Positions 6,215 through 61,488 of a stretch of DNA of 64,000 nucleotides are shown here, piece by piece; positions within the stretch are counted from its first letter, which is position 1; each line of letters starts with the position of its first letter. The stretch is from NCBI RefSeq assembly GCF_016428585.1, contig NZ_JAELVR010000004.1, positions 248,001-312,000 on the forward strand, read 5' to 3'. The stretch is from Sedimentitalea arenosa (lineage in GTDB: Bacteria > Pseudomonadota > Alphaproteobacteria > Rhodobacterales > Rhodobacteraceae). The notes below the pieces were generated by a model. It was not told where the DNA came from and searched no databases. It saw nothing but the letters and a program-made list of their open reading frames with translations. Position numbers and translations under genes: made by a program.

Positions 6215-6559
6215 TCAGGAGGCTTCCTCGTTCGCGCAGAACAGCTCGTAGACGACTTCGAGGATGCGGCGGGGCCGGTCGTCGGCGAGCCGGTAGTAGA
6301 TCGCCTTGCCATCGCGGCGCGGAACGACAAGCCCTTCAAGACGAAGCCGCGACAATTGCTGCGATACGGCCGCCTGCCGCGCCGACAGCAGTTCCTCGAG
6401 CTCGGTCACCGATTTCTCCCCGGTGACGAGATGACAGAGAATCATCAGCCGGCCTTCGTGGCTGATCGCCTTGAGGAAGTTCGAAGCCGTGGTCGCGTTT
6501 TCGACCATCGCGTCGAGTTCGTCTTCGGCCATGTCTGGGGTAAACCGGGGAAGAGCCAT
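6215..6559 (-). CDS. soxR: SoxR: ArsR-family persulfide-responsive repressor of the sox genes
   Basis: A 114-residue winged-helix ArsR/SmtB protein. The recognition helix region is SARQAAVSQQLSRLRLEGL, followed by the wing RRDGKAIYYRL. Two cysteines, Cys42 (ILCHL) and Cys108 (LFCAN), match the pair that forms a tetrasulfide link in the persulfide sensors SqrR, BigR and SoxR. When oxidised by sulfane sulfur these repressors leave DNA. The start is at MALPRF; the longer open frame upstream overlaps the neighbouring gene antisense and has no support. It lies third in the leftward operon after soxS and the GlcG-like gene, and candidate operators are found in both sox intergenic regions and elsewhere in the window. 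Confidence 0.92.
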   Translation of the reverse strand: MALPRFTPDMAEDELDAMVENATTASNFLKAISHEGRLMILCHLVTGEKSVTELEELLSARQAAVSQQLSRLRLEGLVVPRRDGKAIYYRLADDRPRRILEVVYELFCANEEAS

Positions 6560-8950: not shown

Positions 8951-8973
8951 TGAATAATTCACAATCGTGAATT
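8951..8973. promoter_or_regulatory. SoxR operator upstream of soxX
   Basis: Two overlapping palindromes: TGAAT-A-ATTCA (8951-8961) and AATTCAC-AATC-GTGAATT (8956-8973, perfect 7-bp arms). Together they contain ATTC-N8-GAAT, the recognition pattern of SqrR/SoxR-type persulfide repressors. The site lies between soxW and soxX, about 83 bases before the soxX start. Confidence 0.85.
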
Positions 8974-50913: not shown

Positions 50914-52131
50914 TCACTCGGCGGGGATCGCGGCTCCCGGATGGTCCGGACGGCCGAAATGCTGCTTGTTCAACCGCAGAACGAGACCGATCATCAACAG
51001 TTGTGCAGCGATGGCGAGCGCGGTGAGCGACCAGTAGCCGGCTCCGAACTTTGCGATCACGCCGGCAGTGACAAGGCCCTTGTTGATGAAGAAGTGCAGC
51101 ATGACCGACAGGGCGACGCCGGGGCAGACCAGTGCGTAGGAGCCGGCGGACCGCTCGGACCCGAACACGAAGCTGTCGAAATAGCGCTGTCGCAGCAGCA
51201 CGGTGGCGCCGAGCAAGAGGAACAATACCTGCACCGCGAGCAGGCGCGCCAGGAAGATCATCGTCTCGCCGGGGGCGTCATGCACGCTGAAAGCGGTGTG
51301 CAGGCCGTGATCCTGGCGCAGGAAGAGGATGCCGAGAACCGTGGTCAAAGGCACGATGATCATCAGCGTCGGGCCCGATTCCCGCGCCGTGCCGTGTTGC
51401 AGCATCGCGGCGATGCCGGTGATCGCGGCAATCACCGCGTAGAGCACAGCGGCGATACCGAAGAAGGTGGAGAGCACAAGGGAAACACCGACAACCAAGG
51501 TTTGACCGCTCATCGCGGCGGGTGCAGAGAGACCGACGCCGACCATCGACAATGCGAACGCAGGCAGCAGTTGTGCAAAAGAGTTGTGCGCAGTCATGTC
51601 GAAGGCGCCGCCCTGCGACAGGACGCGGCCGAGGAAGTCGCCGATCAGCGACAGCGCCCAGACCCCGATCAGGACGAAGGCCACCAGCGCCATCGGGAAG
51701 AGGTATTCGACGATGCTCCACAATCCCGGTACGAAGACCAGCCCGACAATGAACAGCGCGTTGACGGTCATTGCCATCGCGAGCGGCGCGGCGAGCAGCG
51801 TGGTTTCGCCGTTGGAACTGCGCAGCGCCTTGTAAGCGTCCGTTTGGCGGAATCGGGCCAGTGCGGCGAGGTTCCAACCCAACGATTTGAGGTTGAGGGC
51901 CGCGAAGAAGGCAATACCGATCCAGGCTGCGATGATCGCGGCCTGCATGGTGGGTCCGCCGCTGGCGAAGGCGGCAAGGATGTCCTCGAAGACCGGAACC
52001 GGGCGACCCGGGTGGGGCACCCAGAACATCAGGTACATGAAGAAGGTGACGGTCAGCCCTCCAGCGCCGAGGGAGGCCAGAAAGTAGAGCGGTGAATAGG
52101 CGGACTGGGCCTGGGATGCATGATGTGACAC
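50914..52131 (-). CDS. Ten-helix membrane protein of unknown function with persulfide-type operators
   Basis: A 405-residue protein with about ten hydrophobic helices. It begins YSPLYFLASLGAGGLTVTFF, then MFWVPHPGRP and, late, the Lys/Asn-rich RLNKQHFGRPDHPG. A GTG start at 52131 has AAGGAG 7 nt upstream. I recall a similar family being called TsoY in genome annotation, but could not check this. It does not have the cysteines of YeeE/YedE transporters. Two exact ATTC-N8-GAAT operators lie in its promoter, which points to control by a SoxR/SqrR-type repressor and thus to a role in sulfur metabolism. bciA follows after 105 bases. Confidence 0.75.
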   Translation of the reverse strand: MSHHASQAQSAYSPLYFLASLGAGGLTVTFFMYLMFWVPHPGRPVPVFEDILAAFASGGPTMQAAIIAAWIGIAFFAALNLKSLGWNLAALARFRQTDAYKALRSSNGETTLLAAPLAMAMTVNALFIVGLVFVPGLWSIVEYLFPMALVAFVLIGVWALSLIGDFLGRVLSQGGAFDMTAHNSFAQLLPAFALSMVGVGLSAPAAMSGQTLVVGVSLVLSTFFGIAAVLYAVIAAITGIAAMLQHGTARESGPTLMIIVPLTTVLGILFLRQDHGLHTAFSVHDAPGETMIFLARLLAVQVLFLLLGATVLLRQRYFDSFVFGSERSAGSYALVCPGVALSVMLHFFINKGLVTAGVIAKFGAGYWSLTALAIAAQLLMIGLVLRLNKQHFGRPDHPGAAIPAE

Positions 52132-52147
52132 GGTCGGCTCCTTTTGA

Positions 52148-52163
52148 ATTCAAATATTGGAAT
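52148..52163. promoter_or_regulatory. Persulfide-repressor-type operator 1
   Basis: Exact ATTC-AAATATTG-GAAT, the SqrR/SoxR-type recognition pattern, 17-32 bases before the GTG of the ten-helix protein gene. A plausible minus-strand -10 (TATTTG) overlaps it. Confidence 0.75.
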
Positions 52164-52172
52164 ACATAAAGC

Positions 52173-52188
52173 ATTCAAAAAAACGAAT
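52173..52188. promoter_or_regulatory. Persulfide-repressor-type operator 2
   Basis: Exact ATTC-AAAAAAAC-GAAT, 25 bases upstream of operator 1. A plausible minus-strand -35 (TTGAAT) overlaps it, so binding at both sites would block RNA polymerase. Confidence 0.75.
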
Positions 52189-52217
52189 GTAAAGGGTCGA
52201 GTTGACGCAGCAGAACG

Positions 52218-52243
52218 AAAAAGGCCCGGCGACACGCCGGGCC
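52218..52243 (-). terminator. Rho-independent terminator after the VPLPA-CTERM gene
   Basis: On the minus strand a perfect 9-bp stem GGCCCGGCG/CGCCGGGCC with a 3-nt loop is followed directly by TTTTT, about 30 bases past the stop codon of the gene ending at 52272. It keeps that transcript out of the promoter of the ten-helix protein gene. Confidence 0.9.
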
Positions 52244-52271
52244 CTCAAGACGATGTGAGTCTAATGTGTAG

Positions 52272-52934
52272 TCAGCCGCGCGCGCGCCGGCGCTTCATCA
52301 AGCCGAATGCGGCGAGGCCGCCGACAAGCAGCGGCAGGCCGGCCGGCAGCGGAACAGGGGCGACCGCTCCGGCAACGAGCTTGTCGCCCGTCACCGTCAC
52401 GTAGTCGATCCGGAAACCTCTATTGGCGGCATCAACATCTGTCCAGAAAAGAAGGTTGAACTTGCCGTTAGCGGCACCGGTCAGCGTGATGGTTTCGGTG
52501 GACCAGGCTTCTGGGGACCAGTGTGCATCGCCATCGACACCGCCTTTAAATGCCTGAGTCCAGGCGGACGTGTCGTCGATGGCCGGCGCGGCGACGGACG
52601 TCCATGACAAGAAGAGACTGTCGCTCGCTGTGTTGCTGCTGTTGGTCCGCCAGTTGAAGGAGACAGTAACATTTTCGTATCCGGTGGCATCGATCACCAT
52701 GCTCGAGGCCGCAGCATCTGGGTTGCCATCGCGAACGTCCCGAAGACGCAGCATGCCGTTGTTGACGAAAACGTCATTGGGCGCGCGTTCCAACTCGCTC
52801 CAGCCGCCACCGACGCTTTTGCTGTCGGGACGGTCAAAATCGTCGCTGAAAAGGGTTGCTGCTGCGGCCGAACTCGCGGCAAAGGCGAGGGCCACGGCGA
52901 CGCAGGCAGGTTTCATAACGGCGAGCATTGTCAT
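52272..52934 (-). CDS. Exported VPLPA-CTERM surface protein
   Basis: A protein of about 220 residues with a signal peptide (ending ASSAAAATLF), a beta-rich domain similar to carbohydrate-binding or laminin-G-like folds (DDFDRPDSKSVGGGWSELER), and a C-terminal sorting signal: VPLPAGLPLLVGGLAAFGLM followed by KRRRARG. VPLPA is the Rhodobacteraceae variant of PEP-CTERM, processed by an exosortase. The start was set at MTML because GGAG lies 9 nt upstream. Base composition looks somewhat more AT-rich than its neighbours. It is monocistronic, with its own terminator. Confidence 0.75.
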   Translation of the reverse strand: MTMLAVMKPACVAVALAFAASSAAAATLFSDDFDRPDSKSVGGGWSELERAPNDVFVNNGMLRLRDVRDGNPDAAASSMVIDATGYENVTVSFNWRTNSSNTASDSLFLSWTSVAAPAIDDTSAWTQAFKGGVDGDAHWSPEAWSTETITLTGAANGKFNLLFWTDVDAANRGFRIDYVTVTGDKLVAGAVAPVPLPAGLPLLVGGLAAFGLMKRRRARG

Positions 52935-53041
52935 CGCAGATGGCTCCATACTGGTTAAAAACACAAAAACTAATCTAAATTACCCTTAAAACCCGCAGGG
53001 TTCAAGGACTATCAGGGTTAACACGGCAGGGTGACCCGGCG

Positions 53042-61472: not shown

Positions 61473-61488
61473 ATTCCGGCTTTGGAAT
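61473..61488. promoter_or_regulatory. Persulfide-repressor-type operator in the hsp20 promoter
   Basis: Exact ATTC-CGGCTTTG-GAAT, 36-51 bases before the hsp20 start. A consensus -35 (TTGACA, 61468-61473) shares its last base with the left arm; no good -10 is obvious. This is the same pattern as at soxX and at 52148-52188. Confidence 0.6.

Follow-up and report, generated by a model that had tools for sequence, protein, structure and literature searches.

Persulfide-sensing repressors of the SqrR/SoxR/BigR type, such as R. capsulatus SqrR and H. denitrificans SoxR, carry two conserved cysteines and have operators of the pattern ATTC-N8-GAAT, a sequence that R. capsulatus SqrR is reported to recognize (PMC9774250). 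They control, among other targets, sox genes and sulfur transporters (PMC12423496), and SoxR binding regions have been mapped inside sox clusters, according to earlier work cited in PMC10451225. The locus analyzed here shares the operator pattern with these systems but departs from them in its architecture: it has a tandem pair of sites 24 to 26 bp apart, with −35 and −10 elements around the distal one; the gene that the sites precede, tsoY, stands alone; and the sites track an orphan paralogue of the repressor rather than SoxR. All coordinates below refer to the window, the 64,000-nucleotide stretch of Sedimentitalea arenosa DNA that was analyzed.

The product of tsoY has likenesses of its own. 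The naming of the TsoY family (NCBIfam NF047644; selenoprotein TsoY, NF047643) is reportedly tied to a 2025 paper by Haft and Tolstoy. Selenoprotein TsoY is listed with the motif UxxV in PMC13188914; the protein described here matches the family over its full length but is the cysteine form, with CPGV where the selenoprotein has UxxV, and is encoded by a solitary gene outside any selenoprotein cluster. No description of such operator control for the family was found in the literature examined. The SLAC1/TehA (TDT) anion channels and transporters share with TsoY a predicted ten-helix fold, but TsoY has neither a Pfam SLAC1 match nor a significant profile match, carries an invariant cysteine in TM9, and is longer (about 405 versus about 310 residues). 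Like TsoY, the YeeE/SoxT/PmpAB sulfur importers are inner-membrane proteins of sulfur oxidizers with essential or conserved cysteines, and the PmpAB-like pair of this genome also bears an operator; they nevertheless belong to PF04143, a family not related to TsoY in which there are nine or paired four helices.

Paired sites in the tsoY promoter

The tsoY gene lies on the reverse strand (50914 to 52131) and begins with a GTG codon, preceded by a Shine-Dalgarno sequence, GGAG, at 52138 to 52141 on the same strand. Two exact ATTC-N8-GAAT sites had been predicted in front of it, and an exact pattern scan placed them at 52148 to 52163 (ATTCAAATATTGGAAT) and 52173 to 52188 (ATTCAAAAAAACGAAT), with a spacing of 25 bp; neither is assigned a strand. 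Read on the gene strand, the proximal operator, O2 (ATTCCAATATTTGAAT), lies 17 to 32 bp 5' of the start, a position that it keeps in orthologues, and the distal operator, O1 (ATTCGTTTTTTTGAAT), lies 42 to 57 bp 5' of the start, being 24 to 26 bp from O2 in orthologues. The two sites are bracketed by the GTG at 52131 and by an intrinsic terminator of the gene upstream (52220 to 52246, reverse strand), a 12-pair stem with a T tail. This terminator isolates the tsoY promoter, so that the gene has a promoter of its own. The upstream gene, which ends in this strong terminator, occupies 52272 to 52964 and encodes a VPLPA-CTERM sorting-signal protein.

A putative −35 element, TTTACA (52188 to 52193, reverse strand), overlaps the first base of O1, and a putative −10 element, TTTATG (52165 to 52170, reverse strand), follows after a 17-bp spacer. 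The sites had been expected to overlap plausible −10 and −35 elements, and a −35/−10 pair fits the promoter, with the −10 between the operators. A strict sigma-70 scan of the window did not call the pair, which was recognized from the family promoter alignment. The aligned tandem promoters read TTTACATTC-N8-GAATGT-AT-rich-ATTCC-N7-GAAT. In them, the −35 and O1 share the first base of the operator (TTTACA is so placed in 34 of 64 tandem promoters), O1 fills the spacer, and a conserved AT-rich −10 element lies between O1 and O2, an arrangement that amounts to a repressor layout.

The original prediction came with proposals to scan the whole genome for the motif and to align orthologous promoters. 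The scan returned 38 exact copies, most of them within coding sequence, of which four are in the window. Dinucleotide shuffling puts the chance number of exact matches at 0.88 per 64 kb, so the expectation of well under one chance match in that length was too low. None of 20,000 local shuffles reproduced two exact sites in one 60-bp stretch. The fourth window site, at 61473, is within a nitroreductase-like gene and was discounted as a chance match.

The alignment showed the motif to be conserved. Of the 397 genomes sampled from the family, nearly every one of a different genus, 109 carry tsoY. Among the 71 tsoY loci with a sound start, an exact site was present within 110 bp upstream in 51 (counted as genera), whereas shuffles averaged 0.115. 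The same 71 upstream regions contained no match with other spacers (N4 to N7 and N9 to N13), and when all 256 four-base palindromes with N8 were compared, the next best reached only 9 of the 71 loci. Across 105 loci, nearly one per genus, 69 had an exact site; 38 were tandem, defined as one exact site plus a partner that deviates at no more than one base, 31 were single, and 36 had no exact site. In 80 named genomes, including those of Roseovarius, Marivita, Shimia, Phaeobacter, and Mameliella, an exact tsoY site was present in 73 and two were present in 39, spaced 24 or 25 bp apart in 35 of these 39. This conservation upstream of orthologues establishes that the sites are real.

As a positive control, we examined the region between the soxW-like gene and soxX, which contains an exact match, ATTCACAATCGTGAAT, at 8957 to 8972 (no strand assigned). 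We take the soxW-soxX gap to be one of the SoxR-bound regions. An exact site preceded soxX in 20 of 20 genera tested, 69 to 130 bp before the soxX reading frame. The pattern had been assigned to SqrR/SoxR-type persulfide sensors, and both its presence before soxX and its match to the published SqrR sequence (PMC9774250) uphold that assignment. Given its conservation before tsoY and its occurrence before soxX, the motif is very probably a persulfide-repressor operator; before tsoY, where the palindrome lies over promoter elements and is conserved in orthologous promoters, it is predicted to act as one.

Exact intergenic operators also precede other genes of this genome. One lies directly 5' of a PmpAB/YeeE-like split sulfur-transporter pair (L012:1501-2683; C4:196705 in the S. 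arenosa genome), which is a probable member of the same regulon as tsoY, and another lies 5' of a SoxH-like zinc metallohydrolase gene (L002:1501-2490; C1:141960). Exact intergenic operators in the same genome lie 5' of genes for an RND-type adaptor (HlyD; L008:1501-1516), a DsrE-like protein (L051:1501-2001), and cytochrome oxidase subunit I (L043:1473-1516). Several of the kinds of gene found here are listed as likely targets of such repressors (PMC12423496).

Two candidate repressors

The genome encodes two repressors of the SqrR type, about 60% identical to each other. The first, SoxR, is encoded within the window, as had been stated, at 6215 to 6559 on the reverse strand, 46 kb from tsoY; it is of the ArsR-family persulfide-sensor type, has both cysteines, and shares 65% identity with R. 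capsulatus SqrR (PDB 6o8k). The second is an orphan SqrR/BigR-type paralogue on another contig (C26:134460), which is 62% identical to the same SqrR and likewise has both cysteines, placing it in the SqrR type; its score of 108 bits falls short of the 155 bits required by the NCBIfam BigR equivalog. A tree built from 83 regulators recovers the orphan type as a clade with support of 100/100. The orphan SqrR/BigR-type repressor gene at L027:1507-1839, whose product is a candidate repressor with both cysteines, adjoins an enolase-superfamily gene, and the type is solitary in other genera too, for example, by molybdate ABC transporter-like genes in L367.

SoxR had been put forward as the regulator, and it is possible, though we think it rather improbable, that the tandem sites are occupied by the SoxR encoded in the window and that tsoY belongs, as an outlier, to the sox regulon. 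SoxR is encoded 46 kb away, the same 4+4 motif precedes soxX in every genus tested, and genomes with only SoxR-type regulators still have single tsoY sites, mostly with the sox-like ATTCA. In addition, tsoY co-occurs with soxB, which is present in 95 of 109 genomes with tsoY versus 152 of 288 without it (p = 4e-11). Together with the conserved operators, this co-occurrence supports the earlier proposal that the membrane protein is a candidate for the sulfur response. It is co-occurrence without dependence, however. Two genomes, G105 and G370, have no soxB, no sox cluster, and no SoxR, possess only the orphan type, and keep both tsoY operators; G328, with no sox genes and no detectable SqrR-type regulator, has no tsoY site.

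The architecture and the sequence of the sites likewise argue against SoxR. In a sample enriched for operator-less genomes, tandem tsoY sites occurred in 14 of the 20 genomes that carry the orphan type and in 1 of the 33 that lack it (p = 2e-7), and among genomes with an exact site, the counts were 14 tandem and 2 single with the orphan type versus 1 and 10 without it (p = 8e-5); as most orphan-type genomes are related and belong to one SoxR clade, both p-values overstate independence, and shared ancestry explains part of the link. The inner base of the half-site differs in the same direction. All 20 soxX sites have ATTCA, and single tsoY sites also favor A (37 of 64 half-sites), whereas tandem tsoY sites favor C (66 of 132 half-sites, with A in 23) and are mostly ATTCC; the single-versus-tandem contrast gives p = 2e-8 with half-sites counted as independent. 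Autoregulatory sites near SoxR-type genes were found at 4 of 61 loci, close to the background of about 2. Since tandem architecture and site sequence track the paralogue and the sites persist without sox, SoxR is unlikely to be their main binder, and the comparison of genomes points to the orphan paralogue as the probable main regulator of tsoY.

Fold, conserved residues, and neighborhood of TsoY

The 405-residue membrane protein had been described as uncharacterized, but it belongs to a named NCBIfam family, matching the TsoY profile NF047644 from end to end (positions 1 to 378 of 378) with 522 bits against a cut-off of 150. An AlphaFold2 model (pLDDT, 91; pTM, 0.90) has ten long transmembrane helices, in agreement with the number first proposed. 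When this model was compared with the PDB by using Foldseek, TehA and SLAC1 were the sole convincing matches (probability, 1.0; TM, up to 0.60/0.73; E, about 1e-3), and the predicted fold is thus the ten-helix SLAC1 fold. Searches of Pfam and of PDB sequences with TsoY gave no match, nor did a search of a viral structure library. Six diverse TsoY members had no Pfam match to PF03595 (SLAC1/TDT) at E <= 10, and a TsoY-SLAC1 profile comparison with hhalign was not significant (probability, 0.7 to 1.2%). As the sequence profiles fail to support homology, we regard the relationship as fold resemblance, not membership.

The odd helices line the pore in SLAC1-type proteins, and the invariant residues of TsoY lie on odd helices: N124 in TM3, R272 and H275 in TM7, and C336 in TM9. 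The cysteine of C336-P-G-V, which fits the form C/U-x-x-V, was present without exception in the sequences compared (50 of 50 and 16 of 16). Judging from the motif in PMC13188914, rather than from an alignment, the Sec of selenoprotein TsoY would occupy the place of C336.

Within the family, the neighbors of tsoY are housekeeping genes only (smc, ATP synthase genes, and a ParA-like ATPase gene), and the neighborhood is therefore uninformative on function. Plasmid copies comprise two in roseobacters, with unrelated neighbors, and a fragment in Aliarcobacter. The fragment, an unannotated TsoY-like stretch on an Aliarcobacter cryaerophilus plasmid (L253:6001-6819), matches residues 12 to 285 only and is possibly a broken or frame-interrupted gene. 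In a distant species (L238:779-10315), an apparent operon contains a SLAC1-family gene, tsoY, and the gene for an octaheme tetrathionate-reductase-family cytochrome, followed by genes for a TIGR01244 sulfurtransferase/SQR-like fusion, SulP, and a rhodanese.

The original prediction offered a transporter or an electron-transfer protein. The first suits the SLAC1/TehA fold; for the second, no direct evidence was found. We consider it unlikely that TsoY is a membrane redox protein for sulfur compounds with a quinone or cytochrome partner and a catalytic TM9 cysteine or selenocysteine. Such a role would accommodate the agreement of the invariant cysteine with the UxxV motif (PMC13188914), the invariant histidine and arginine in TM7, and the adjoining octaheme cytochrome gene, but the predicted fold is that of an anion channel, and the cytochrome is a neighbor in one genome only and is absent from the S. 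arenosa genome.

Proposed control and role of tsoY

We favor, as likely overall, a model in which a persulfide repressor silences tsoY until sulfane sulfur rises, whereupon TsoY transports a sulfur anion through the membrane. The tandem pair would be the operator of a persulfide-sensing ArsR-family repressor, more likely the orphan paralogue than SoxR. With the distal site in the −35/−10 spacer and the proximal site just downstream of the −10, a dimer on each would exclude RNA polymerase. A rise in sulfane sulfur (persulfide or polysulfide) would lead to bridging of the repressor's two cysteines, its release, and transcription of tsoY. TsoY would then let a sulfur-containing anion cross the inner membrane, which may be sulfite, thiosulfate, or a persulfide species; the helix that holds its invariant cysteine is expected to be pore-lining.

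The predicted regulatory half of this model is strongly supported at the level of sequence. The reading that both sites arose by chance in an AT-rich promoter has a negligible probability and is already refuted: for all that the bare pattern is expected nearly once per window and most genomic copies lie inside genes, the sequence, position, and spacing are kept in dozens of genera and the controls gave zero. Sulfur-anion transport would be the simplest reading of the other half. More speculatively, TsoY may represent a new class of sulfur-anion channel with a SLAC1-type fold, in which a cysteine in the permeation path (Sec in anaerobes) handles sulfane sulfur or thiosulfate, and which in roseobacters is under its own orphan persulfide repressor, not the sox regulator.

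So far as the literature examined shows, the regulatory link to tsoY is new, while the kind of operator and the protein family are already known. Inner-membrane passage of reduced sulfur in sulfur oxidizers has been called poorly understood (PMC11582611). TsoY is a named family without a function described in that literature, and its gene neighborhood is silent. The operator is a clue that ties TsoY to the way in which a large family of marine bacteria responds to persulfide, and it points to sulfide or thiosulfate as the condition, to SoxR and the paralogue as candidate repressors, and to C336 as the residue of interest.
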